Source of the DNA: Comamonadaceae bacterium
GTDB lineage: Bacteria > Pseudomonadota > Gammaproteobacteria > Burkholderiales > Burkholderiaceae_C
Reading direction: 5' to 3'
Assembly: GCA_947503685.1 (NCBI GenBank)
Contig: CANNEW010000003.1
Location: 1-33,499, forward strand
DNA length: 33,499 nt
Position 1 is the stretch's first letter. Every line of letters begins with the position of its first letter. The translations under genes and the position numbers were made by a program. The notes beneath the pieces are model-generated. The model saw only the letters and a list, made by a program, of their open reading frames with translations. It did no database searches and was not told the DNA's origin. Shown piece after piece: positions 2,483-17,560 of this stretch.

Positions 2483-3646
2483 ATGATGTCTATTTCAAGC
2501 GCCTCCAATTTGAATCTCGTCAGCCCAATGTCACTGGGTCGTCGATGCATCGAAGGCCTCGCTCGACTCAGCGCAAAGGCTGCCATAGCCACTTGCTCCC
2601 TGGTGCTTTGCTGGGGTGCTGCTTGGTCAGAGGAAATACCGTGGCATTTGGGCCGCGTCGATGGAGCGCAAGCCTCCCCTTCGGCGATCAACACGGCAGG
2701 TAACCAACCCGGACCGCACCGCATAGTGGTGGCGGTGATCGACAGTGGCGTGATTGCCAGCCACCCCAGCCTCAAGGGGCGCTTATTGCCCGGTTATGAC
2801 ATGGTCTCTGCAAATTTGAACTTTCGCAAAACCAGATCACCAGATTTCAGTCCTGAAGAGCGCGATACCCGGTGCGGCGAAAAAGTCCCGCCCGCTTCTT
2901 TTCGAACGCACGGCACCGAGGTGGCTAGCTTGATCGCTGGCAACGGCGTGGACGGAGTACTGGGCGTAAACCCGCAGGCACAGATTGTGCCCGTACGATT
3001 GTTTGGCGCTTGCGCCACCTCGCGTCATGATCTGCTAGATGCGATTACCTGGTCAGCAGGCCTGCCCGTTAAGGACGTCCCTGACAACCCCAACCCGGCG
3101 CGCATCATTAATCTCAGTCTGTCGGGTGGATTTTCAGTCTGTAGCGAGGAGTTACAAAATCTAATTTATCGGGTGACGGAGAAAAACATCTTTGTCGTCG
3201 TTGCTGCAGGCAACAATTTTCAGAAAAAATTGCAAGAACCTGCCAATTGCCAAGGCGTGATTTCGGTAGGCGCCTTGGATGCACAAAACCGGATTGCTGA
3301 CTACTCGGCTCTGGATCCGCGCACCGTCATCTATGCGCCAGGTGGTGGACCGGCCTTGTCAGGTAACGAGCAATGGTCGATGAACAAATTGAAAGTCGCC
3401 AGTTACGAACACCTCATCAACGGCCAAGATCGCCCCTCCGCACCCTACGGTGGCGTGGGTACCAGTTACGCCGCACCTATCGTAGCGGGCTATATTTCAC
3501 TTTGGCTATCCCACTGGCCCGAAAAAACAAGGGCGGACTTTTTGAATGAATTAGACCGGTTTACGCGCCGCGTACAACCGGTGCCGGCCTGCTCTAGTTG
3601 TGTGCCACGTGGCTTAGCCAGCATGAGGGACCTGAAGGCCTCTTGA
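2483..3646 (+). CDS. S8 family (subtilisin-like) serine peptidase with N-terminal signal/TM segment
   Basis: Catalytic motifs VVAVIDSGV (Asp), THGTEVASLIAG (His), GVGTSYAAPIVAGY (Ser). Confidence 0.93.
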   Translation: MMSISSASNLNLVSPMSLGRRCIEGLARLSAKAAIATCSLVLCWGAAWSEEIPWHLGRVDGAQASPSAINTAGNQPGPHRIVVAVIDSGVIASHPSLKGRLLPGYDMVSANLNFRKTRSPDFSPEERDTRCGEKVPPASFRTHGTEVASLIAGNGVDGVLGVNPQAQIVPVRLFGACATSRHDLLDAITWSAGLPVKDVPDNPNPARIINLSLSGGFSVCSEELQNLIYRVTEKNIFVVVAAGNNFQKKLQEPANCQGVISVGALDAQNRIADYSALDPRTVIYAPGGGPALSGNEQWSMNKLKVASYEHLINGQDRPSAPYGGVGTSYAAPIVAGYISLWLSHWPEKTRADFLNELDRFTRRVQPVPACSSCVPRGLASMRDLKAS

Positions 3647-3710
3647 TCCCAGGCTGTGGTTCAACTGGTTGCGAGGCCTATCGGCCCAGCACACCCAGGT
3701 GAGGGGCCCA

Positions 3711-3836
3711 ATGAAAAAGCACTGGATTTCAGTGATTTTGCAGATTTGGAGGGCTGTCATCCAAGATTCACCGGCTTGCATCATCATGGGCGGGCGGCGA
3801 CTTGCCGTGATTCAATCAAGAAAGATTAGGCCATGA
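3711..3836 (+). CDS. Small 41-aa ORF, translationally coupled (ATGA overlap) to the downstream gene
   Basis: GAGGGG upstream; MKKHWISVILQIWRAVIQDSPACIIMGGRRLAVIQSRKIRP; its TGA overlaps the ATG at 3833. Below the size cutoff of the ORF track. Confidence 0.4.
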   Translation: MKKHWISVILQIWRAVIQDSPACIIMGGRRLAVIQSRKIRP

Positions 3837-4117
3837 CCGAAAACAACGCCCCCACGATGGATGACGCTTTTGATGAAGATTCAGACACCATCGGAGACTA
3901 TCACCGTATGGCAGCACATCATTTCCAGGCCAGTGCCAAGCACCACATGGCTGCAGCTACCGCTGATGATGATGGTAACGATGAGGCCGCAGCCCGCCAT
4001 GCCTACTTGGCTTATCGCCATCAGCTCAACGGCGTCCAATATGCAGAAATTGCCGCTATGGAAAGTGAGAGCCTCGAAGATGAGTTTGACGTTCCGACGG
4101 AGCTTGAAGCAGATTGA
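3833..4117 (+). CDS. Hypothetical acidic protein with His-rich helical segment
   Basis: ORF of 94 aa with HRMAAHHFQASAKHHMAAA...ARHAYLAYRHQLNGVQYAE pattern. Confidence 0.7.
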   Translation: MTENNAPTMDDAFDEDSDTIGDYHRMAAHHFQASAKHHMAAATADDDGNDEAAARHAYLAYRHQLNGVQYAEIAAMESESLEDEFDVPTELEAD

Positions 4118-4191
4118 TAGCTATGCAGTGAGGATCGCCGGTCACTTTGAGGCATTGCAAAGTTGACCGGTAGCCCCGAATTGTCCCCAGC

Positions 4192-4848
4192 CTAAAACAA
4201 GGGTATTTGCCGCGACTGCAGCAAATAGTCCGCTACCAACTGCGCCAGCAGGACATGGTGCTGGTTGGCGTGCCATTGGGGCTGCATGTACTTTTTGGTG
4301 TACCAATGTGCCTGGCTCTCCAAGTGACACCCCACAAGGCCCACCGCGCCTTGCACCATAGCCATAGGGTCGCCGTTGGCATAGGTGGCAAGGGTGTCAA
4401 ACTGGCCGTTGACGAAGGTGGGGCCGTCATAAAAATACATGCGCTGCGCCTGGCCGCGCCATTGGACCGGAGCCGTGGTGCCATAAGAGGCGCGGATATC
4501 GGCGCCAGGGCGCTTGATGTATTGCACACAGCGCGTGCTTTTCAGTAAATTGAAATAATAGGCATCAGCCCAATACGCACCCATACAAATCCCCAGGTAT
4601 TTGCCGCCGCGCTGCATATAGGCCCGCACATCGGGCATATTGGGTTTGAGAAGGCTGCGAAATAGGGTGGCCTCGCCGTCGCCACCGGGGAATACGACTA
4701 AGTCAACATCGTCAAAAAAACCCTGCTGCACTTTATGGCGGGTGAATAACTTGACATGCGCAAGGGGCGACAGTGCGGCGATCACCCCGTTGACCGAATC
4801 GGTCGAACACGTGGGATGGTGTATGAAAAGGGCAATGGTTTTCTTCAT
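4192..4848 (-). CDS. BPL_N-domain (biotin-protein-ligase N-terminal / glutamine-amidotransferase-like) protein
   Basis: LVVFPGGDGEATLF, YLGICMGAYWA, YFYDGPTFVNG motifs; start MKKTIALFIHH at 4848. Confidence 0.8.
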   Translation of the reverse strand: MKKTIALFIHHPTCSTDSVNGVIAALSPLAHVKLFTRHKVQQGFFDDVDLVVFPGGDGEATLFRSLLKPNMPDVRAYMQRGGKYLGICMGAYWADAYYFNLLKSTRCVQYIKRPGADIRASYGTTAPVQWRGQAQRMYFYDGPTFVNGQFDTLATYANGDPMAMVQGAVGLVGCHLESQAHWYTKKYMQPQWHANQHHVLLAQLVADYLLQSRQIPLF

Positions 4849-4993
4849 GCCGGCACGCAGGTTTGCATGGGTTTCCTTGACCTGAGGGGCCAGGACGGTG
4901 CATGCACCTGCATCTAGTTTAAGCCCACTGTCACGCAATATTCATTAAATTCACCTAAATTCGCAAGGAAATCCAAACAATCCCAAACATCCA

Positions 4994-5920
4994 TTGAATT
5001 ACTTTTCCGCCTCCAGTAGCAGCATCCTTCAAGGTGGGCTTGAAAAGCGATTTGTTTGTGTTGTCATTGCAGCGCTGGCCTTGGTTCTTAGCGGCTGTTC
5101 GCCCATGGCACTGATTAAAAGAAGCCTTGGCGACGAATTGGCAAAACAAGGCCAGTCCCAGGAGGACGACCCGGGTCTGGCGCGCGAAGCCAGTGCTTTT
5201 TACTTAAAACTATCGGAATCGCTACTGGCGGACACGCCTGACAACCTGAAGTTGGCCGAGGCGGTGGCGGCCGGTTTAAGCCAGTACACCTATGCCTATG
5301 TTGCTTTTGAGGCGGAGCGCCTGGCGGTAAGGGATGCCCAGGGCGCCTACCGCATCAATGAGCGCGCCAAGCGGCTCTATTTACGGGCCCACCGCCACGC
5401 TCTGCGGGCTTTGGAACTGGCATCGCCAGGCTTTGGGGCAAAACTTGCCCAGCCCGATGCCAAACAGTGGCCTCTGATTTCCCAGGATCAGGTAGGCCTT
5501 GCCTATTGGGCCGCTGCATCCTGGGGAGGCTATATTTCAATGTCTAAAGACGCCCCTGAAGCGGTTGCAGATTTCCCCCTGGCCTACCGCTTGGCCACAT
5601 TGGCCTGGAAGGCCAACCCGAACTATGGCAACGGAGGGCTTGCCAGCTTGATGGGAAGCTTTGAGTCTGCGCAACCAGGCGGTTCCCTGGTAAAAGCGGA
5701 GCAGTATTTCGACGCGGCCATCACCATCAGCCAGGGCAAAAACGCAGGCCCGTACATCGCAAAAGCGGAAGGCATTGCCTTGGCCCAAGGCCAGCGGGAA
5801 GCTTTTGAAATTTTGCTCAAAAAAGCGATGGAGACCAGTGACAAACACCCCGACCTCAGCAATACCCTGATGCGCGAACGGGCACAGTGGCTGCTGCAAA
5901 CCGCTGACGACTTGTTTTGA
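4994..5920 (+). CDS. TRAP transporter TatT-component family lipoprotein
   Basis: Lipobox LVLSGCSP, helical repeat protein, immediately upstream of TRAP P and QM genes. TTG start uncertain. Confidence 0.82.
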   Translation: MNYFSASSSSILQGGLEKRFVCVVIAALALVLSGCSPMALIKRSLGDELAKQGQSQEDDPGLAREASAFYLKLSESLLADTPDNLKLAEAVAAGLSQYTYAYVAFEAERLAVRDAQGAYRINERAKRLYLRAHRHALRALELASPGFGAKLAQPDAKQWPLISQDQVGLAYWAAASWGGYISMSKDAPEAVADFPLAYRLATLAWKANPNYGNGGLASLMGSFESAQPGGSLVKAEQYFDAAITISQGKNAGPYIAKAEGIALAQGQREAFEILLKKAMETSDKHPDLSNTLMRERAQWLLQTADDLF

Positions 5921-5921
5921 A

Positions 5922-6965
5922 ATGCCCACCTCTATGAACCTCTTTGCAAATCCTTCCAGGCTCTTGGCTGGCTTTTTCTTTTTGGCTATTGCCTTGACAA
6001 GCATGCGCGACGGCATAGCGGCGGATAAGCAACTGCGTATCGGGTCGCTGGTACCCAAGAACTCCCTGTACCACCGCCAGCTCATGGACGTGGGCGAATC
6101 CTGGCGGGCCGCGCAAGGAGAGAACAGCAAATACGTGGTCTATCCGGACGGAAGCCAGGGCGGCGAAGCGGAAATGGCGCGGCGCATGCGCATCGGCCAA
6201 TTACAAGGCGCCTTGCTTTCCGTGGTGGGATTGCAAGAGATTGAGCCCTCGATCAACGCGCTGCAAGTCATACCCATGCTGTTTAGATCCTGGGAGGAAG
6301 TGGACTATGTGCGCGAGAAGATGCGCGCATCCATGGAGAAAAAATTCTTGGATAAAGGCTTTGTCGTTTTGGCCTGGGGAGATGCCGGCTGGGTGCGCTT
6401 TTTCTCCAAAGACCCGGCAGTTCGGCCTGACGATTTCAAGAAAATGAAATTTTTCACTTGGGGCTCGGAGCCTGATCAGCAGGCGATCATGAAAAGCCTG
6501 GGCTACACACCGGTACCCCTGGAAACTTCGGACATTCTTCCGGCTATCCAGACCGGAATGATCAACGTAGTGCCCTCGACGCCCTACTACGCCTTAGCCA
6601 CGCAAATTTATACCTCAGCACCGCATATGTTGGAGATCAACTGGGCGCCGATTGTGGGCGCATTGGTGCTCACCAAGAAGGCCTGGGACGATATGAGCCC
6701 CGCCACCCAGGCGGCCATGCGCGCGGCAAGCGAAAAGGCCGGCGTGCAAATTCGCGCCAAAGCGCGGCAGGAGGTCAATGACGCGGTCGATGCCATGAAA
6801 AAGCGGGGGCTGACGGTCAATCGCCCCAACGCCGAGCAAATGCGGGAATGGACCGAGTTCGCTGAAAAGCTGTATCCGCGCATTCGCGGCACCATGGTGG
6901 CGGCCGACACATTTGATGAAGTGCTGGCCCATTTGAAAGACTTCCGCTCGGGCAAGGCAAAGTGA
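5922..6965 (+). CDS. TRAP transporter substrate-binding protein, DctP family
   Basis: Signal peptide; LRIGSLVPKNSLYHRQL, GDAGWVRFFS, SDILPAIQTGMINVVPSTP. Confidence 0.92.
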   Translation: MPTSMNLFANPSRLLAGFFFLAIALTSMRDGIAADKQLRIGSLVPKNSLYHRQLMDVGESWRAAQGENSKYVVYPDGSQGGEAEMARRMRIGQLQGALLSVVGLQEIEPSINALQVIPMLFRSWEEVDYVREKMRASMEKKFLDKGFVVLAWGDAGWVRFFSKDPAVRPDDFKKMKFFTWGSEPDQQAIMKSLGYTPVPLETSDILPAIQTGMINVVPSTPYYALATQIYTSAPHMLEINWAPIVGALVLTKKAWDDMSPATQAAMRAASEKAGVQIRAKARQEVNDAVDAMKKRGLTVNRPNAEQMREWTEFAEKLYPRIRGTMVAADTFDEVLAHLKDFRSGKAK

Positions 6966-8785
6966 CTATGACAAGCCTGGGCGCGCTTCGCTCTTGGTTG
7001 GGTCGCATCGATGAACAAATTGCCGCCCTTGCTTTAGGGCTGATGATGCTCATTCCAGTGATCGAGATAGCGATGCGACCCATGATGGGCAGCGGCATTG
7101 CCAATGCGCCGGTCGTCGTACAGCACTTAGGGCTGGTGCTTGCGATGTTTGGCGCGCTTGCCGCAGAAAGGCACGGCCATCTTACGTCCTTTAGCTCCAA
7201 TGATGGTAGCAAGGGGCTGGCGCTTGCGTGGCGCTTGGCTCAGCTTCTTGCCGCTGTGGTGTGTGGCATGCTGGCATATGCGAGCTGGCAATTCGTGCTC
7301 ACGGAGCGCGATGCCGCACACACCTTAGCCTATGGCCTGCCCATCTGGACGCTGCAAGCGTGCATGCCCTTGTGCTTTTTGTTGCTGGGTTTTAAATTGG
7401 GTGCTAGGTGTGCAAAGCATTTCAAACTGGGCTACCTCTTGTCCGCAGCGGCGCCCTGCCTGGGCTGGGTCATCGCAGGCCAGTTGGAAGGAACGGCTTT
7501 CTCCCCCTGGCCCGCTTTAGCCTTGCTGGCCGCAGCATTGGTAGCGGGGGCACCGATATTCACTGTTTTGGGTGGCCTGGCCCTTGTGCTTTTCTGGAGC
7601 GAGGGCATGCCCTTGGCTTCGGTGGCCTTGTCGCACTACCAAATTACGGTCAACCCCTCCTTACCCGCGCTGCCATTGTTTACTTTGGCAGGGCTGCTCT
7701 TTGCCCGCACCGGGGCCACGCAAAGGCTCGGCAACTTGTTCCTTATTCTGTTTGGTGGGGGCCTTAAAGGGTCCGTCATCGCGGTCGCATTGTTATGTTC
7801 GTTTTTCACTGCATTTACTGGGGGCAGTGGCGTTACCATTTTGGCGCTTGGCGGACTGATGCTGCCGCTGCTGCGTAATGCGGGTTATCCGGAGAACAAA
7901 GGCATAGGGCTGGTCACCAGCGCCAGCGCCTTAGGCGTGCTGCTGGCCCCTTCCGTGCCGCTCATCATGTACGCGATTGTGGCGCGCGTGCCCATTAGCA
8001 CGATGTTTTTAGCCGGCGCAATACCGGCCTTGGTCATGGTCGTGACTTTGCTGATTTTTGGTGGTTTTTTGCAAACCAAGGCGGATGCGCCCCGCTTGGC
8101 CACCGGGGCAGCAAACGCCGCCCTCTGGCCGACCATTTGGCTCGCGAAATGGGAGATTATGGCGCCGGTGGTGGCGATCGGCTCGCTCGTCAGCGGCTTG
8201 GCTACGCCCATGGAAAGCGCCGCACTGACCGCGACTTATGCCGTGCTGACCCAGGCCTTAGCGCACCGCGAATTGACATGGAAGATATTTTTCTCCTGCC
8301 TGAGTGACGCCGCCCAAATCATTGGCGGGGTACTCCTCATCCTAGGCATGGCGCTGGCACTGACCAATTTCCTGATTGATGCAGGCATTCCCGATGCCGC
8401 GATTACAGCAACGCAAAGCCTGATCCCTAGTAAAGAAATGTTTCTGGCCGCTTTGGTGGTTTTTTTGCTTTTCGCCGGAGCGTTGATGGAAATATTCGCA
8501 GCCATCGTGGTGCTGGTACCTTTGTTGCTGCCCGTAGCCCAAAGCTATGGTATCGAACCCGTGCACTTTGGCATCTTGTTTTTGGCGGCCATGGAGATGG
8601 GCTTTTTGTGCCCACCGGCGGGCATGAATATTTTCTTTGCTTCCGCAATGTTCGGCAAACCCCTCAGCGCAGTCGCCGCCTCGGTAACCCCCGCCTTGAT
8701 GGCCATTTTTGTCGGCAGTTTGCTCATCGCCCTGGTACCCGCATTGTCAACCGCCCTGCCGAAATTTCTGGGATTGATGGCTTAA
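6962..8785 (+). CDS. TRAP transporter permease, fused DctQ-DctM
   Basis: N-terminal four-TM DctQ-like region (VEIAMRPMMGSGIANAPVVVQHLGLVLAMFGAL, AAERHGHL) followed by DctM (FTAFTGGSGVTILALGGLMLP, LAPSVPLIMYAIV, GFLCPPAGMNIFFASAMF). GTG start overlaps the dctP stop by 4 nt. Confidence 0.92.
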   Translation: MTMTSLGALRSWLGRIDEQIAALALGLMMLIPVIEIAMRPMMGSGIANAPVVVQHLGLVLAMFGALAAERHGHLTSFSSNDGSKGLALAWRLAQLLAAVVCGMLAYASWQFVLTERDAAHTLAYGLPIWTLQACMPLCFLLLGFKLGARCAKHFKLGYLLSAAAPCLGWVIAGQLEGTAFSPWPALALLAAALVAGAPIFTVLGGLALVLFWSEGMPLASVALSHYQITVNPSLPALPLFTLAGLLFARTGATQRLGNLFLILFGGGLKGSVIAVALLCSFFTAFTGGSGVTILALGGLMLPLLRNAGYPENKGIGLVTSASALGVLLAPSVPLIMYAIVARVPISTMFLAGAIPALVMVVTLLIFGGFLQTKADAPRLATGAANAALWPTIWLAKWEIMAPVVAIGSLVSGLATPMESAALTATYAVLTQALAHRELTWKIFFSCLSDAAQIIGGVLLILGMALALTNFLIDAGIPDAAITATQSLIPSKEMFLAALVVFLLFAGALMEIFAAIVVLVPLLLPVAQSYGIEPVHFGILFLAAMEMGFLCPPAGMNIFFASAMFGKPLSAVAASVTPALMAIFVGSLLIALVPALSTALPKFLGLMA

Positions 8786-8862
8786 ATTCAGGCAGCGGGT
8801 GGACGCGGGTTTGCAAGCCCTGGCAACACGCCGCCTATACTTTGTGCCACGAAGGAACCCCT

Positions 8863-9813
8863 ATGCGCACATCCCCCTTTGAGCATATTGCCGTTGTAGG
8901 CGCGGGCGCCGTTGGTAGTTTTTGCGGCGCCATGCTGGCGCGCGCCGGGCATCAGGTCACGCTGATCGGCCGGCCCGCGCATGTGAAGGCGATACAGAAC
9001 CATGGCTTGCAACTGGACTTGGCCCACGCCGCAGGCGTAGAAACCGTCCGCCTGGACGCCAGCACAGATTTCGCAGCTTTGCGCACAGCGGATCTGGTGT
9101 TGTTTTGCGTCAAGTCCACCGATACCTCAGCGCTAGCCCACAGCATGGCCGCCCACGTGGCACCTCAGGCCATCATCATGAGTCTGCAAAACGGCTTAGA
9201 AAATGTAGCCCTTATCGCGAGCGAACTACCCAATCCAGTGGTTCCAACGGTGGTGTATGTGGCCACTGAAATTACAGCGCCCGGCTGCATCAAACACCAT
9301 GGCCGGGGGGAGTTGCTTATAGGCAGCATGCAAGCTTGCAGGCTTGACAATGCGCCAGAAGCCTTCGCGCGCATCGTCGAACTTTTTGCCAGCGCCCAGG
9401 TGCCCGTGCGCATCTCGCAGAACGTGATGGCCGACTTGTGGTCCAAGTTGCTGATTAACTGTGTGTTGAACGCAATTTCCGGCTTGACCCAAACCAGCTA
9501 CGGCCAACTGGCCGCTGTGGACGGGATACAGACCACCCAAAGCGCTCTGTTGCGCGAGGTGCTGGCCGTGGCCCGTGCCGATGGCACAGCACTCGACGAG
9601 GCCACTGCGATGCAAGCCGTGGCCCATATTTCCAAGACTATGGCAGGGCAAAAGTCCTCCACCGCGCAAGACATGGCGCGCCACAAACTCAGTGAGATCG
9701 ACCACCTCAATGGCTTTGTGGTGCGCCGCGGTCAGGCGCTGGGCGTGCCCACGCCGGTGAACCAAGCCATGGTCGCACTGGTTAAATTGGTCGAGTCGAC
9801 CTATATCGCGTAA
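8863..9813 (+). CDS. panE: 2-dehydropantoate 2-reductase family (ketopantoate reductase, PanE/ApbA)
   Basis: N-terminal Rossmann HIAVVGAGAVGSFCGAMLARAGHQVTLIGR; LWSKLLINCVLNAISGLT; SSTAQDMARHKLSEIDHLNGFVVRRGQALGVPTPVN. Confidence 0.9.
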   Translation: MRTSPFEHIAVVGAGAVGSFCGAMLARAGHQVTLIGRPAHVKAIQNHGLQLDLAHAAGVETVRLDASTDFAALRTADLVLFCVKSTDTSALAHSMAAHVAPQAIIMSLQNGLENVALIASELPNPVVPTVVYVATEITAPGCIKHHGRGELLIGSMQACRLDNAPEAFARIVELFASAQVPVRISQNVMADLWSKLLINCVLNAISGLTQTSYGQLAAVDGIQTTQSALLREVLAVARADGTALDEATAMQAVAHISKTMAGQKSSTAQDMARHKLSEIDHLNGFVVRRGQALGVPTPVNQAMVALVKLVESTYIA

Positions 9814-9835
9814 GGCTGACACAAAAGGCCTGGCC

Positions 9836-9849
9836 TTGATGCACATCAA
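9836..9849. promoter_or_regulatory. Candidate FNR/Anr box TTGAT-GCAC-ATCAA
   Basis: Exact match to TTGAT-N4-ATCAA, symmetry extends to CTTGATG-CA-CATCAAG; upstream of the Rieske oxygenase gene. Confidence 0.6.
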
Positions 9850-10006
9850 GCCCTCAGCAGCCCGATAACCTAGGCTTGACAGCATGCGCGCCTACTGGCG
9901 GCGCAGCGCTGATTGCGCGCTGGCTAGAATCAATTGTGCCAACCCCTTGTCTGGGTGCCGCATGCCCGCCCGAGCGGCGGCGGCGTCCTTTGTTTGCGGA
10001 GCCTTG

Positions 10007-11230
10007 ATGAAACACGAACGGCAGGTCGAGCTACTGAAACAAACTTTTGCGCACATTGACGCCAAGACCACGCCTTTATGGGACGCACCCTATTGGAATC
10101 CGGCCGAGCGCTATACCAGTCCAGACCACTTTCAGCGCGAGCTAAGTACGCTGTTTGGCGGGCAAGTGCCCCTGTTGGCCGGCTTCTCGCCAGACCTGCC
10201 TGCCCCCGGGGACTGGTTCACCTGCGATCTGCCCGGTGCGCCCATTTTTTTGACGCGCACCGCCGGGGGAAGCGTCAAAGCGTTTTTGAACATCTGCCGC
10301 CACCGGGGCTCGCGCCTGGTCGGTTTCGCGTTGGATGCCCAAGGCCATTTTTTGCAACACCGCGGCCGGCACCAACACAGCTTTAGCTGCCCCTACCACG
10401 CATGGACCTATGACAACAGCGGCACCTTGATACGCCACACCAATGACATGGGTGGCTTTGCCCAATTGCAAACCCGCATGGAATGCGGACAGTTCAACCT
10501 GATAGAAGTGCCCTGCCTGGAAACCGCTGGCATGCTGCTGGTGCGCCCCCAAGGCAAGGAGCCCATAGATGCCGAGCGCGATACCTTTGGGATGCACAGC
10601 CGCATGGGCGAATTTGGGTTTGCCAATTTTCATTTTTACCAGGAAGTGTTTTGGGACTTTGCCGCCAACTGGAAGCTCTTGCTGGAAACCTTTATGGAGG
10701 GCTACCACATAGCAGCGCTGCATCGTAATACCCTGGCGCCGCGCTTTCGCTGCTACCCGGTGATTTACGAATGCTTCGGCCCGCATGCCCTGTTCCCACT
10801 GCCGCGCAAAAGCATTGACGAGCAGCGCCACTTGCCAGAGGCCCAATGGTCGGTGCTGAAACATGCTTCCACTATTTTTTCGGTCTCGCCGCATGCGGTG
10901 CTCAACATCCCCATGGACGGGCATATGGAGTTGTGGGATTTTCAGCCTCTGGACGTAGGCCGCACCAGGGCGCGGGTACGGTTTTACATACCCCAAGCCA
11001 TTGCCAGCGAGGCCGATGCGGCGCGGTGGAACAAGAGCTGGAAAGTCTCCACCGAAGTGATTTCAGGCGAAGACTTCACCCAGCAACAAAATATCCACAT
11101 CAACCTGGCCAGCGGCCGCCTTCCCGGTGTCGTCTTCGGACAGAACGAGCCCATGCTGTCGCACTTTCACCGGGAATTGGGCAAGCTCACCGGTGTACCG
11201 GATGCACCGCTGCCGGAATCGTTTTTTTGA
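10007..11230 (+). CDS. Rieske (2Fe-2S) aromatic-ring-hydroxylating oxygenase alpha subunit
   Basis: Rieske ligands CRH...CPYHAW; mononuclear Fe motif NWKLLLETFMEGYHIAALH. Start at MKHERQ (10007) preferred over 9884. Confidence 0.92.
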   Translation: MKHERQVELLKQTFAHIDAKTTPLWDAPYWNPAERYTSPDHFQRELSTLFGGQVPLLAGFSPDLPAPGDWFTCDLPGAPIFLTRTAGGSVKAFLNICRHRGSRLVGFALDAQGHFLQHRGRHQHSFSCPYHAWTYDNSGTLIRHTNDMGGFAQLQTRMECGQFNLIEVPCLETAGMLLVRPQGKEPIDAERDTFGMHSRMGEFGFANFHFYQEVFWDFAANWKLLLETFMEGYHIAALHRNTLAPRFRCYPVIYECFGPHALFPLPRKSIDEQRHLPEAQWSVLKHASTIFSVSPHAVLNIPMDGHMELWDFQPLDVGRTRARVRFYIPQAIASEADAARWNKSWKVSTEVISGEDFTQQQNIHINLASGRLPGVVFGQNEPMLSHFHRELGKLTGVPDAPLPESFF

Positions 11231-11262
11231 TGCGCTTGGACGCGCTCTAGGCGCTGCCCCGA

Positions 11263-12171
11263 TCAATACGCTATTGGCACATGCATCGCCGGCTCCTTAT
11301 GCCAGGCCCAGTAGGTATCGGAAAGCTTGCGGGTGAGCGGACCGATGGCGCCATCGGCCACATTGTGCCCATCGACGCGCGTGACCGGCAACACACCACC
11401 ACCAGAGCTGGAAATAAAGGCTTCGTCGGCAGCGCGAAATTCGGTGGCGCTGACGGGACGTATCTGCACTTGCAAGCCCAGTGACTGCGCAATCTCTATG
11501 ACGGTGCGGCGGGTTATGCCTTCCAGCATGCCCTGGTCCGGCGTAATCAACTGGCCTCCAGCCACACAAAACACATTAAAGCCCGGCCCTTCCACTACGT
11601 GGTCTTTGTCATCCACCAGCACCACGCTGTCGGCACCGCCGTCCAGGGCATCGAGCAAGCCCATGGTCAGGTCATTCCAGTGGTAGTTTTTGGTCGTCGG
11701 GTCCACCGAGGCCGCCGGTATGCGCTGCACGTGGCTGATGCGCAAATGTAGGCCGGTGGCGCGTTGCTGCGCGTTTGCAATCCAGACAAAAGGCACAGCA
11801 AACGCATAAAACTGGTTTACCGCCTGGCGCGGATCGCGCGAGCCCCAAGGCGTTTGCCCGCGCGTGCATAGCATTTCCACATACGAGGCCCGCAAGCCGC
11901 TGCGGCGCACACACTCGCTCAGGATGGCGGTAATTTGCGCATCATCCACGCCGGGGTCCAAGCGCCAGCGCTGGCAACTGCGCGCGAAGCGCTCAAGATG
12001 TGTATCCAAGCGAAAAAACGCACCGTCCCATACAGTGACTACATCGTAGGTGGCATCCGAGTGCAAAAAACCCAGGTCGGTGATCGGAATACTGGCATCT
12101 GCAATGGGCACGTACTGGTCGCGCACATAGGCGCAGCCTTTGGAGAAATCTGGGGATTCATGGTCGGGCAT
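11263..12171 (-). CDS. Class IV PLP aminotransferase (D-amino-acid / branched-chain aminotransferase-like)
   Basis: VPIADASIPITDLGFLHSDATYDVVTVWDG, HLERFARSC, GPGFNVFCVAGGQLITPDQGMLEGITRRTVIEIA. Confidence 0.92.
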   Translation of the reverse strand: MPDHESPDFSKGCAYVRDQYVPIADASIPITDLGFLHSDATYDVVTVWDGAFFRLDTHLERFARSCQRWRLDPGVDDAQITAILSECVRRSGLRASYVEMLCTRGQTPWGSRDPRQAVNQFYAFAVPFVWIANAQQRATGLHLRISHVQRIPAASVDPTTKNYHWNDLTMGLLDALDGGADSVVLVDDKDHVVEGPGFNVFCVAGGQLITPDQGMLEGITRRTVIEIAQSLGLQVQIRPVSATEFRAADEAFISSSGGGVLPVTRVDGHNVADGAIGPLTRKLSDTYWAWHKEPAMHVPIAY

Positions 12172-12482
12172 GGCGGAACTCCTGCTTTTGAACCTGGGCG
12201 CGCGCAGTGTCGCCGAAAAACGCGCGGTTCAGATCTTGCAATTAGAGAGCAGCGTTCCCGCTTTGGCCTGCAAACGGCCAGTGGAAGCCCATTTTTGCCA
12301 CTCAACGGGGCTGACTCGGCCAACACCTAGGGTTTGCGTTGCTCTAGCTTGAGCCCTAAATGCGACAAGCCAAATAAACATAGAGCCTGCAGCAGGCCTT
12401 CAAAACAGTGTCCTACACACGGAGTGCCTCTTGGCGCTTGCGTGGGCAAGTCAACATCGCGGGGTTGGCGTTCGCTTGTACG

Positions 12483-12640
12483 CTAGTCGTAATGCGTCCA
12501 CATCCGCAAGACACGAACCGTGCGCTGCTCCGAAAACACTTCATAGACCAGACGGTGTTGGATGTTGATCCGTCTCGAATACGCACCCGAGAGGTCATCC
12601 ACCAGCTTCTCAAAGGGCGGCGGGTTTTGGAAAGGATCTG
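12483..12640 (-). pseudogene. Truncated Txe/YoeB-family toxin remnant (C-terminal ~52 codons)
   Basis: Minus-strand translation ending at 12483: DPFQNPPPFEKLVDDLSGAYSRRINIQHRLVYEVFSEQRTVRVLRMWTHYD*. No start and the expected N-terminal half is missing; not in the ORF track. Confidence 0.8.
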
Positions 12641-12642
12641 AG

Positions 12643-12666
12643 AAGTGTCGGGTCAAACCGACACTT
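12643..12666. repeat. Perfect 9-bp inverted repeat at the end of YoeB homology
   Basis: AAGTGTCGG-GTCAAA-CCGACACTT. Confidence 0.75.
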
Positions 12667-12767
12667 GCACATCAGGTAGTAGCTTTCTGCGGGGTGACCA
12701 GTACCAGGACACGCGAAGGCGACGATCCTGGCAAGGGCCCAGAGCGAATAGGTGGCCCCTTACCCAA

Positions 12768-13421
12768 TCAATTTAAAAGATGTCCTGTCTTCACAAAGAT
12801 AGTGCAGCCCTCTTTGCTGAAGGGCTGGTGCAGGCTCATGTGAGGACTTCTGATCCATGAGCCGGCCCGATAGCGTCCATACTCATCTTCAAACACGCCA
12901 TCGACTACAAAGATCTCTTCCCCGCCATGGTGTCTGTGTGGATTGAAATAGGTTTGAGGTGCCCACTTCACTAAAGTAGATCCACTGCCCTGTCGCATCA
13001 GCGGCATGACATTCAGACCGGGCACCATACCTTGAAACCAAGGCGCAGTTTCAGTATTCAGCACTTCTCGCTCTACTTGATCCGGACCAAGGTGGCGTAA
13101 CTTTACAAAAAGAATACAGCCGGTCTTGCTATAGGGTGCATGTGAAGAGCCGGGAGGATTCATGATGTAGGTGCCAGCGGGATAGTCGCCAGCCTCATCG
13201 CTGAATACTCCATCCAGCACCAATATCTCTTCACCATACTCATGGCTATGGGTTTGAAACTTAGATCCAGGTTGATACCTAACGATAGATGTTGCTTTTG
13301 CGACCTCATCACCAGTGCGCTCAAGCATTCGCCTCTCAACCCCAGACTCAGGGCTGGGAATCCAAAATAAATCATTGTGGTTAATCACCACCCTCTTGCT
13401 GTAATCGGCATTGATATCCAT
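12768..13421 (-). CDS. Bicupin, ChrR-like cupin domain protein
   Basis: Two cupin repeats: FQTHSHEYGEEILVLDGVFSDEAGDYPAGTYIMNPPGSSHAP and FNPHRHHGGEEIFVVDGVFEDEYGRYRAGSWIRSP. Confidence 0.88.
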   Translation of the reverse strand: MDINADYSKRVVINHNDLFWIPSPESGVERRMLERTGDEVAKATSIVRYQPGSKFQTHSHEYGEEILVLDGVFSDEAGDYPAGTYIMNPPGSSHAPYSKTGCILFVKLRHLGPDQVEREVLNTETAPWFQGMVPGLNVMPLMRQGSGSTLVKWAPQTYFNPHRHHGGEEIFVVDGVFEDEYGRYRAGSWIRSPHMSLHQPFSKEGCTIFVKTGHLLN

Positions 13422-13635
13422 TTATTACATCTCAGAAATTTTGGAAAAGCACTAAAGCATAGCAACAAACTAGCATGGCTATGCGGCCCGACCCAATGTC
13501 ATCTTGCGTCCGGTAGCGGAGTTGCATTTTTCGCTGAACTTTAAGCTATGTCGGCCAGCGTCGAGCATGATTTGACCTTTTAGGCACTAACCTGGAGGGG
13601 ATACTTGGTAGTCTTTGCCTGCTCAATAACCTGCC

Positions 13636-13857
13636 ATGAATCCCCTGAACCCCAAGAAACTGCTGCTGAGCAAATGGACTGCCGTGACGCCCGTGGCCAA
13701 GCAAAAGCACTACCTTGTCAGTCGGGTGATCAAAACAGACTCGCCCACCGATCCTATTGAATTGGTGGAAATCGAATCCGTGTTTTCCAAGGCAACCCAG
13801 GTCATCCCCTGGCGCGATCTGCAAGACGCTGACATCTGGCGCCAGGGTTGGGTTTGA
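13636..13857 (+). CDS. TIGR02450-type small Trp-containing conserved protein
   Basis: NPKKLLLSKWTAVTPVAKQKHYLVSRV...VIPWRDLQDADIWRQGW. Confidence 0.8.
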   Translation: MNPLNPKKLLLSKWTAVTPVAKQKHYLVSRVIKTDSPTDPIELVEIESVFSKATQVIPWRDLQDADIWRQGWV

Positions 13858-14112
13858 ATTGCAAATTCCCCCACTGACCATTTGAAGAGGACTGGGAATC
13901 CCCGCGGCACACCTGCGCTAACTGAGAAAAGTCGATCTGCTTCAAGCTCTAAGGTCCAAAACCCCAGCTTAGCTTCGAAGTTTGGCCAGGGCAACCGGAA
14001 CTCATACTACGCAGTGCGCGCGCATTAATATGAAACAGGCCCGGTTAGCATTAGGCACCAGACAATCGATGCGCAAGCGCCTATGCCATAATGCCCGTCT
14101 TCGCTGCACACT

Positions 14113-14197
14113 GCCCGGGTGGTGAAATTGGTAGACGCAGGGGACTCAAAATCCCCCGCCGCAAGGCGTGCCGGTTCGATTCCGGCCTCGGGCACCA
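14113..14197 (+). tRNA. tRNA-Leu (anticodon CAA)
   Basis: GCCCGGG acceptor, anticodon arm GGGGA-CTCAAAA-TCCCC, variable arm CGCCGCAAGGCG, T arm GCCGGTTCGATTCCGGC, encoded CCA. Confidence 0.95.
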
Positions 14198-14248
14198 CAA
14201 GCTAAGTCTTGTTGCAAAGCGCTCAGTCGCTTTGAGTCGCACAATCAG

Positions 14249-14277
14249 CCGTTCTCCAATGGGAGAACGGTTTTTTT
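14249..14277 (+). terminator. Rho-independent terminator downstream of tRNA-Leu
   Basis: CCGTTCTCC-AAT-GGGAGAACGG followed by TTTTTTT. Confidence 0.9.
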
Positions 14278-14406
14278 CGCCCAATTGACTCGGTGTGAGT
14301 CGACTCGACTAATGTCGAAAAATGTTGAGTCGCGTACTAGAATTACCCGTAATTCCCCCGACGACGGGGAAACAACTCAGGGTAATAGCATCCATCCGCA
14401 TTGGTC

Positions 14407-14476
14407 CCACCAGCATCTACTTGCTGCCCGAAAGGCGCAAAAAAATAGCGGCCATCGAGACTTTGGAAGTGAATAA
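14407..14476 (+). pseudogene. Tyrosine-recombinase/integrase 3'-end remnant, copy A (frameshifted)
   Basis: PTSIYLLPERRKKIAAIETLE; near-identical to copy B at 15222 but GAGAGACTT is GAGACTT (2-nt loss), so the frame runs past the original stop. Confidence 0.7.
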
Positions 14477-14507
14477 AGCGGGCGACCAAGCCCGCGCCCT
14501 GCCTGCA

Positions 14508-14828
14508 TTAAATTACCCCCACAACCAGCAGCAACGCTCTATCAACCGCCCGCATTCGGTCATCCTCAAGACCGCCAAACGGTGCGCTTATTTTTGAGCG
14601 AGGCAGTGTGGACAATTTGTCCACCATCACCTGAGACAATACGCGAAGCCCATTGTGTGTTGTGGGCTCTACCGTCACCCGGAATGCCGCTGTACGCAGT
14701 TCACTGGTGACTGGGCATAACACCACACTTTCCAACTCAGCTAGCAAATCAGTTTGGACAATCAGCGCCGGGCGCGGCTTGCCATAATCACCTTGAAGCG
14801 AAACAGTCACCAAATCCCCACGCTGCAT
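14508..14828 (-). CDS. MazF/PemK-family type II toxin
   Basis: MQRGDLVTVSLQGDYGKPRPALIVQTD, VVLCPVTSEL, LSQVMVDKLSTLPRSKI. Confidence 0.9.
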   Translation of the reverse strand: MQRGDLVTVSLQGDYGKPRPALIVQTDLLAELESVVLCPVTSELRTAAFRVTVEPTTHNGLRVLSQVMVDKLSTLPRSKISAPFGGLEDDRMRAVDRALLLVVGVI

Positions 14829-15052
14829 TACTTCCAGCCCTCGATATGGCCAGCGGCTTCCTCGGCAAAACGGATTGCCTCAGTTTCATGAGCCTCGCCC
14901 TTGAGCAACAGGCATTGCATCCTCACATCGGCGGCAAAACTGGCCAGCCGGGTATCGGGTACCCAAAATTGAACCGGGCGCAGTCCTGCCGCCCGCATGC
15001 GCTCGCGTGAGAGTGTGACCTTGGATGTAGAAAAGTTAGCTGAGGGCATCAT
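14828..15052 (-). CDS. MazE-type (DUF3018-like) antitoxin
   Basis: RERMRAAGLRPVQFWVPDTRLASFAADVRMQCLLLK; stop/start contact with the MazF-like gene. Confidence 0.85.
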   Translation of the reverse strand: MMPSANFSTSKVTLSRERMRAAGLRPVQFWVPDTRLASFAADVRMQCLLLKGEAHETEAIRFAEEAAGHIEGWK

Positions 15053-15150
15053 TCACTCCTTAATCGAAAAATCATGCAAAGTAACATGATACTATGCATG
15101 AGATGTTCATTGGACAGCCGTCGGCTTTTGCGCCGAGGCAGGCTTGGCGC

Positions 15151-15289
15151 AACGCCGCAAGTTGCCCGCGGCGTCCCGCTAGACATTTTGAGCGACAACC
15201 TGGGCCACTCCGGCTTGGGCACCACCAGCATCTATGTGCTGCCCGAAAGGCGTAGAAAAATGGCGGCGATCGAGAGACTTTGGAAATGA
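15151..15289 (+). pseudogene. Tyrosine-recombinase/integrase C-terminal remnant, copy B
   Basis: QVARGVPLDILSDNLGHSGLGTTSIYVLPERRRKMAAIERLWK*: has the GH box and catalytic Tyr, lacks the Arg boxes and the N-terminus. Confidence 0.8.
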
Positions 15290-15294
15290 AAAAA

Positions 15295-15323
15295 GGGGGG
15301 TGTTGTTCGAAACAACACCCCCC
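15295..15323 (-). terminator. Hairpin consistent with an intrinsic terminator on the minus strand
   Basis: GGGGGGTGTTGTT-CGA-AACAACACCCCCC, 13-bp arms, preceded on + by AAAAAA (U-tract on the minus strand). Confidence 0.7.
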
Positions 15324-15595
15324 TGCTCTAGCCAGCCTAATATCAAGAAATTAGCGTCTTAATAGCTTGCTCCACGGCCTGCATTTGGCTGGGCTACAGC
15401 GTGCGCGGCCCCGTAAGGCGCAGTGTCGCGTGAGGCCACAAATAGGACTCCGCCCTAAAGGCCGTGCGGTCCTTGGCCGCCCAGCAGGGCGCTCGCCAGG
15501 CAAATAATTTCAACCCTGCCAAGTCAGTTTTCACTTTGCAAGTTGGCGCGCGGCATTACTATCGCGCCTTCATATACGTTCATTGCGACGAGCCC

Positions 15596-16750
15596 ATGCC
15601 TGTAATCACCAACATCGAAGACTTACGCGTTTTGGCCCAAAAGCGGGTGCCGCGCATGTTTTATGACTATGCCGACTCCGGCAGCTGGACCGAGGGCACG
15701 TACCGCGCCAATAGCGAGGATTTTCAAAAAATCAAGCTTCGCCAGCGGGTAGCCGTCAATATGGAAAACCGCAGCACCGCCACCCGCATGGTGGGTGTGG
15801 ATGTAAAAATGCCCGTGGCGATTGCGCCGGTGGGCCTGACTGGCATGCAATGCGCGGATGGCGAAATTAAAGCCGCGCGTGCAGCCGAAAAATTCGGGAT
15901 TCCCTTCATGCTGTCGACCATGAGCATTTGCTCCATCGAAGACGTGGCGGCCAACACTACCCGCCCTTTCTGGTTTCAGCTCTACATAATGCGCGACCGC
16001 CAGGCCATGGTGAAAATGATCGAGCGCACTCGCAAAGCCGGTTGCGACGCGCTGGTGCTGACCCTGGATTTGCAAGTGATAGGCCAGCGCCACAAAGACC
16101 TCAAAAACGGCCTGACCGCGCCGCCCAAGCCGACGCTGTCCACCATCCTCAACCTGCTGACCAAACCGCGCTGGTGCCTAGGCATGGCCGGCACGCGCCG
16201 CCATAGCTTTGGCAACCTGGTGGGGCACGTCAAAGCGGTCAGCGATATGAAGTCGCTAGCGGCCTGGACCAATGAACAGTTTGACCCGCGCCTGTCCTGG
16301 GCCGATGTGGCCTGGGTGAAGGAGCAATGGGGCGGCAAGCTCATTCTCAAAGGCATACAAGACGTAGAAGACGCCAAACTGGCAGTCCTGAGCGGCGCCG
16401 ACGCCATCGTGGTCAGTAACCACGGCGGGCGCCAGTTAGACGGCGCGCAGTCCAGCATTGAAGCGCTGCCGGCCATCGTCGAGGCGGTGGGCGACCAGAT
16501 CGAAGTCTGGATGGACGGCGGCATCCGCAGCGGGCAAGACGTTCTCAAGGCCTGGGCCCTGGGCGCGCGTGGCACCTTAATAGGCCGCGCCATGGTTTAT
16601 GGCCTGGGTGCCATGGGCGAGGCCGGCGTGACCAAAGCCCTGCAAATCCTGCACAAAGAGCTGGACATCACCATGGCCTTTTGCGGCCACACCGATTTAC
16701 AAAACGTCGATAAATCGATTTTGTTGCCGGGGACTTTTCCTACAACTTGA
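15596..16750 (+). CDS. FMN-dependent alpha-hydroxy-acid oxidase/dehydrogenase (LldD-like)
   Basis: VPRMFYDYADSGSWTEGTYRAN, IVVSNHGGRQLDGA, EVWMDGGIRSGQDVLKAWALGARGTLIGRAMVYGL. Start MPVITN at 15596. Confidence 0.93.
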   Translation: MPVITNIEDLRVLAQKRVPRMFYDYADSGSWTEGTYRANSEDFQKIKLRQRVAVNMENRSTATRMVGVDVKMPVAIAPVGLTGMQCADGEIKAARAAEKFGIPFMLSTMSICSIEDVAANTTRPFWFQLYIMRDRQAMVKMIERTRKAGCDALVLTLDLQVIGQRHKDLKNGLTAPPKPTLSTILNLLTKPRWCLGMAGTRRHSFGNLVGHVKAVSDMKSLAAWTNEQFDPRLSWADVAWVKEQWGGKLILKGIQDVEDAKLAVLSGADAIVVSNHGGRQLDGAQSSIEALPAIVEAVGDQIEVWMDGGIRSGQDVLKAWALGARGTLIGRAMVYGLGAMGEAGVTKALQILHKELDITMAFCGHTDLQNVDKSILLPGTFPTT

Positions 16751-16759
16751 TGCAAAAAC

Positions 16760-16781
16760 ATCTGATGTAATTTCATCAGAT
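16760..16781. promoter_or_regulatory. Probable VapBC autoregulatory operator
   Basis: Perfect inverted repeat ATCTGATG-TAATTT-CATCAGAT abutting a TACAAT -10-like box just before the antitoxin ATG. Confidence 0.65.
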
Positions 16782-16792
16782 ACAATGCGCTG

Positions 16793-17053
16793 ATGCGTAC
16801 GACTTTTGATCTGGACGACGATGTGCTGGCGGCGGCTAAAGCCCTGGCAAAAGCGCGCCAAACCACGGCGGGACGGCTTATTTCAGACACCATGCGCCGG
16901 GCTATTCAAATGGGATTGGCCGACGAAGCAGCCCCCGCACCGGTTGGCGCGGCATCGCTTGGGGTGTATGGTTTCAGGCCACTGAGCCCCGCAGGCCAAC
17001 ATATAGTGACCAGCGAAGAAGTGCGCAGCCTGCGCGAAGAAGCCGGCGACTGA
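16793..17053 (+). CDS. VapB-type ribbon-helix-helix antitoxin
   Basis: MRTTFDLDDDVLAAAKALAKARQTTAGRLISDTMRRAI. Confidence 0.85.
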   Translation: MRTTFDLDDDVLAAAKALAKARQTTAGRLISDTMRRAIQMGLADEAAPAPVGAASLGVYGFRPLSPAGQHIVTSEEVRSLREEAGD

Positions 17054-17055
17054 GC

Positions 17056-17484
17056 ATGCGCGCCCTGCTCGACACCAGCGTGCTGATTGCGCTGTTGGAC
17101 GCCAACCACTTACAACACCCACTGTGCACGCGATGGCTTGCGACGCAGCAAGATGGCTGGGCCAGCTGCCCCATCACGCTCAATGGCTGCATCCGCATTC
17201 TTTCGCAGCCCCAATACCCTAACCGCTTGCCTATGCAAACCGTGGCCAAGGGCCTTCAAGAGGCCATGGCCCACCCCATGCACCGCTTTTGGCCGGACGA
17301 GATCAACCCCTTGGCCGCCGACGCGCTGGATTGGCAACGCTTGATGCGGCCTGCCGAAATCACCGATGCCTATTTGTTGGCACTGGCGGTGCACCACCAG
17401 GCTTGTCTGGTCACCTTAGACCAGGGCATTTCGCTGGCCTGGGCGCACGGAGCCAGCGCTGCGAATTTGCGGGTTTTGGTGTGA
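17056..17484 (+). CDS. PIN-domain VapC-type toxin
   Basis: MRALLDTSVLIALLDANH, EITDAYLLALAVHHQACLVTLDQGI; acidic PIN residues, adjacent to VapB-like gene. Confidence 0.9.
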   Translation: MRALLDTSVLIALLDANHLQHPLCTRWLATQQDGWASCPITLNGCIRILSQPQYPNRLPMQTVAKGLQEAMAHPMHRFWPDEINPLAADALDWQRLMRPAEITDAYLLALAVHHQACLVTLDQGISLAWAHGASAANLRVLV

Positions 17485-17560
17485 GCCGAGCGACCTGCAT
17501 CGGCCGGTGGGTGCAGCCCCTTGTGCGCGCAAGGTACAGCACATAAATTTGGCAAGGCCT

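Follow-up and report, generated by a model that had tools for sequence, protein, structure and literature searches.

How a complete toxin-antitoxin (TA) pair came to lie between two leftover recombinase gene ends, close to a tRNA gene, is the question raised by this locus of a Comamonadaceae bacterium. The window, i.e. the whole stretch of 33,499 nucleotides that was analysed, belongs to contig 3 of a draft genome of 2.64 Mb in 312 contigs, which is 81% complete.

Two recombinase ends and the mazEF pair

Two direct repeats, 84% identical, are located on the same strand at nt 14398–14482 (copy A) and nt 15213–15299 (copy B). They align in two registers, the first covering 63 nt (14398–14460 and 15213–15275, 84%) and the second, after a 2-nt offset, 26 nt (14457–14482 and 15274–15299, 88%). 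A previous sequence-only reading had described near-identical repeats of about 70 bp, coding for the C-terminus of a tyrosine recombinase and spaced by about 815 bp. These repeats are indeed real, with homologous blocks slightly longer than claimed and a spacing of 815–817 bp. Within its own genome the second copy was retrieved as a match with E = 9e-20, and sequence search of the 2.64-Mb draft yielded no third copy, thus indicating that the repeat is not due to chance.

Copy B (nt 15140–15289, plus strand, the part repeated in A being nt 15213–15299) preserves the final 49 codons of a gene for a tyrosine recombinase, including the GH box, the catalytic-Tyr box and the native stop codon. Its C-terminal translation reads TSIYVLPERRRKMAAIERLWK-stop, and a longer reading gives RGVPLDILSDNLGHSGLGTTSIYVLPERRRKMAAIERLWK-stop. 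The two boxes that had been assigned to this copy are present (NLGHSG...TSIY), and NLGHSG and TTSIY are in register with those of intact homologues, as in tyrosine recombinases (PF00589), the Pfam score alone being sub-threshold (13.5 bits). Copy A (nt 14398–14482, plus strand) is truncated upstream and retains approximately 25 recombinase codons. It is translated as TSIYLLPERRKKIAAIE, after which the frame is shifted before the stop by the loss of two nucleotides (GAGAGACTT to GAGACTT) and reads through past the stop codon, as had been proposed; the translations quoted for both copies were also the same as those read here. Upstream, copy B is longer than A by about 70 nt, and in that part the two are not significantly similar. 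Upstream of nt 14398, LRVIASIRIGPTSIY was considered as a vestige of the GH box of copy A and discarded, its similarity to B being not above that of shuffled sequences.

Past each end lies a hairpin on the minus strand, and then a minus-strand gene or a possible relic of one. The hairpin just past copy B (nt 15294–15324) is a strong terminator with a 14-bp stem followed by TTTTTT (z −5.2), whereas the terminator-like hairpin after A, 3' of mazF (nt 14478–14495), is weak by folding (z −0.5). Beyond the strong hairpin, nt 15346–15471 might represent the relic of another minus-strand coding end, interrupted by one in-frame TAG, for which only weak matches and no relative were identified. Two ends, each with its own hairpin and neighbour, would fit two related recombinase genes having different neighbours.

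Between the repeats, the only intact genes are a MazF/MazE pair in the opposite orientation, in agreement with the sequence-only reading, and these are also the only complete genes of the inserted block described below. The mazF/pemK toxin gene (nt 14508–14828, minus strand, 106 aa) codes for a complete PF02452 domain (E 6.5e-21, profile positions 1–108 of 109). The mazE-like antitoxin gene (nt 14828–15052, minus strand, 74 aa), directly upstream and overlapping by one base, codes for a complete PF11455 domain (E 1.1e-23, profile positions 2–65 of 65). When compared with its relatives, mazF has a dN of 0.12–0.14 with a dS of 1.7 or saturated, and is under purifying constraint; mazE is looser (dN 0.30–0.43, dS 1.3–1.9). 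Since both frames are intact and the replacement divergence of mazF is low, the pair is probably functional.

Excision of the TA pair by recombination between the repeats had also been suggested. RecA recombination usually needs roughly 25 bp of identity, and the longest identical run between A and B is of 16 nt only, thus making such an event unlikely. The pair may have been kept because its loss would expose the cells to the toxin; the established TA biology behind this idea is reviewed in PMC12548467.

The inserted block and the tRNA-Leu(CAA) gene

The repeats and the TA pair are part of a block of about 1.2 kb (nt 14287–15489, right edge approximate), having the tRNA-Leu(CAA) gene on one side and an FMN-dependent dehydrogenase gene on the other. 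As the sequence-only reading had advised, the tRNA-Leu(CAA) locus was compared among sister strains for occupied and empty sites. Two sister genomes, G070 and G072 (loci L042 and L043), lack the block, and in them the DNA to the left of nt 14286 (or 14282) joins that to the right of nt 15490 via approximately 65 bp. A loss in the sisters would be the alternative to an insertion; nevertheless, short spacers were also found in further relatives sharing this gene order (L045, L050, L051 and L053), which favours an insertion.

The tRNA gene itself (nt 14113–14197, plus strand, predicted by ARAGORN) flanks the insertion and is followed by an intrinsic terminator (nt 14247–14272, plus strand), which is common to both sister loci and hence lies outside the insertion. 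In 4 out of 29 sister loci (L046, L049, L060 and L062) an integrase is found directly downstream of tRNA-Leu(CAA), which we take to be P4-like from reading its sequence rather than from a family search. The tRNA-Leu(CAA) gene is thus an integration hotspot in the genus. Moreover, both sides of the tRNA gene are variable among relatives. On the left of it, nt 12248–14077, containing a cupin and a DUF2389 gene, are missing in the sister locus L043, where an aminotransferase gene adjoins the tRNA.

The sequence-only reading had interpreted the locus as the residue of one or more elements integrated at tRNA-Leu. The insertion and the hotspot sustain this interpretation, but not the use of this tRNA by the integrase. 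Two elements with related integrases might have targeted tRNA-Leu in succession as tandem genomic islands, and then decayed to their integrase 3' ends and mazEF, an explanation in line with the P4-like integrases of the sister loci and with the variable DNA around the same tRNA gene. However, the left junction (around nt 14287) does not coincide with the tRNA 3' end but is about 90 bp past it and beyond the tRNA terminator, and the far edge has no direct repeat of this end (att repeat). Inside the insert, copies of the tRNA 3' end were limited to short matches, the longest exact one being of 9 nt; one 16-nt imperfect match (nt 15214–15229, within copy B) falls on conserved recombinase codons. 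In addition, by its sequence the remnant recombinase is of another class than the tRNA-adjacent integrases. We therefore consider tandem tRNA islands an unlikely origin of the block.

No recognisable rep, par, relaxase or transposase remnant was detected in the insert, and no long inverted repeats were found at its edges. For the possible relic at nt 15346–15471, 41 nt matched at 80% a gene identified from its translation as pyrB, which was judged to be due to chance.

Relatives of the recombinase and origin of the block

Using copy B as a protein query, long recombinases were matched in 50 out of 401 family genomes, with best matches of 46–59% identity over 37–49 aa and open frames mostly above 550 codons. 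Two matches, one of them from the same genome (contig 16), were put through Pfam and both contain PF12482 (DUF3701) and PF00589 (Phage_integrase). In the literature, recombinases with DUF3701 are assigned to the TnpR subgroup of the simple tyrosine recombinases, which takes its name from the protein of Tn4401 (PMC8138268). With those of Burkholderiales plasmids the fragments share the C-terminal boxes (LGH.SL.TTSIY...E[KR]RRRM.A.E.FW), and the stop codon lies at the same place; they differ in having only 49 and about 25 codons left, in their 46–59% identity and in the lack of par genes alongside. The assignment to the DUF3701 class comes from C-terminal best matches, the N-terminal part being absent from the window, and thus from a stretch of 49 aa with no relative above 59%.

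Of 27 full-length recombinase genes with usable neighbourhoods (our own tally, which omits loci truncated at a contig end and includes two apparently from the same Hydrogenophaga strain), 20 have ParA and/or ParB within approximately 8 kb. Recombinases of this type adjoin parAB, for example, on C. necator pHG1 and on a plasmid of Hydrogenophaga PBL-H3. The search for par genes gave nothing in the other seven neighbourhoods, some of which are on megabase contigs, indicating that the family is not only plasmid-borne. The 20 neighbourhoods with ParA/ParB make recombinases of the plasmid type a likelier source of the fragments than an integrase targeting a tRNA, which corrects the likely source of the scar. 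On contig 16 of the same genome (L093), probably a plasmid or chromid contig, ParA, ParB and a 708-aa DUF3701 recombinase are encoded side by side. In another locus (L097, G205 contig 2, nt 5679–11348), a DUF3701-type recombinase gene is split by an insertion of about 4.6 kb which includes an IS21-type IstB gene.

The search for a full-length integrase, also advised by the sequence-only reading, did return tyrosine-recombinase homology but not the source gene. Nothing closer than 59% identity was retrieved from 103 genus genomes (DNA), 401 family and 369 class genomes (protein), GTDB contigs (peptide patterns and a degenerate pattern), viral contigs, plasmids and phages (DNA). The degenerate pattern gave zero matches on GTDB contigs, a weak evidence as the window's own genome was also not returned and is perhaps not in that collection.

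Whether the two ends come from two genes or from one was evaluated at codon level. Over 19 aligned codons, 8 differ between A and B, 4 of which are synonymous and 4 not, the last two being at the frameshift and the replacements conservative. These differences suggest two diverged genes, not a fresh duplication. A single recombinase 3' end could otherwise have been doubled around mazEF when the pair inserted, or was rearranged, beside the recombinase gene, with subsequent drift. Such an event would be consistent with the homology of both copies stopping at nearly the same position shortly after the stop codon, and with the failure of the search to find a third copy. It would agree as well with a locus of genome G476 (L112, contig 11, nt 2820–5520), where a full DUF3701-type recombinase gene is followed, 143 bp on, by a diverged, approximately 80% identical 3'-end fragment of a related gene; tandem recombinase ends are therefore not unique to the window. 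The G476 locus is equally in line with the two plasmid-like elements proposed below. Nevertheless, given the type of A/B differences and the longer upstream part of B without similarity in A, we regard a single-gene duplication as improbable, to much the same degree as the tRNA islands.

Elements of another type, i.e. transposons that encode a tyrosine resolvase and carry a TA pair as passenger, might also have left such a relic. The domain class matches, as it includes TnpR of Tn4401 (PMC8138268), and Tn3-family transposons often bear TA pairs beside their resolvase (PMC7157771), as a TA pair here lies beside a site-specific recombinase. Furthermore, mazEF relatives on an IncP plasmid sit between two recombinase-family genes. 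On the contrary, Tn3-associated TA pairs are mostly upstream of the resolvase and not on the 3' side as in the window, no terminal inverted repeats bracket the insert, which is also devoid of a transposase, and the recombinase relatives sit by par genes. The Tn3 transposase (PF01526) gave no match in the 81% complete genome. A transposon relic thus appears quite improbable.

Taken as a whole, we slightly incline to the view that plasmid-like elements, one or more likely two related ones, decayed here to the present block, with a TA pair as the last intact genes. One or two such elements would have inserted between tRNA-Leu(CAA) and the FMN-dependent dehydrogenase gene, each bearing a DUF3701-type tyrosine recombinase, of the kind usually found beside parA/parB on Burkholderiales plasmids. 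Successive deletions would then have left the two recombinase 3' ends and the complete PemK/MazF-MazE pair in opposite orientation. Both the plasmid origin and the derivation of the ends from two sources, rather than from one duplicated end, are what we infer from the comparisons above.

Known counterparts and a second TA-like pair

Pairs of PemK/MazF (PF02452) and MazE-like (PF11455) proteins are found on IncP and other plasmids, with both genes complete, in the same order and with about 70% DNA identity to those of the window, which are instead chromosomal and between recombinase remnants. Relatives of mazEF in the genus do not adjoin a DUF3701-type recombinase, and two of them have a distant (about 25%) tyrosine recombinase at approximately 2 kb. 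The locus is a mobile-element scar of an ordinary, known kind in which a TA pair has survived, and represents a small case, absent from sister strains, where such a pair has lasted longer than the element that carried it in.

If tandem recombinase ends were to recur across the family, they could point to the recombination site of DUF3701 recombinases. It is conceivable, but highly improbable, that the recombinase has its own site at or beside the 3' end of its gene, with related elements repeatedly recombining there and tandem ends trapping a cargo such as mazEF; were this true, the same process would also have given rise to the G476 locus.

A second TA-like pair is present in the window at nt 16793–17484, between the FMN-dependent dehydrogenase gene and a DinB-type polymerase gene. 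Its PIN-domain toxin is above the Pfam cut-off and its VapB-like antitoxin is sub-threshold. The surrounding region (nt 16743–17557) is absent from the sister locus L042, so that it either was inserted here too or has been lost from the sister.
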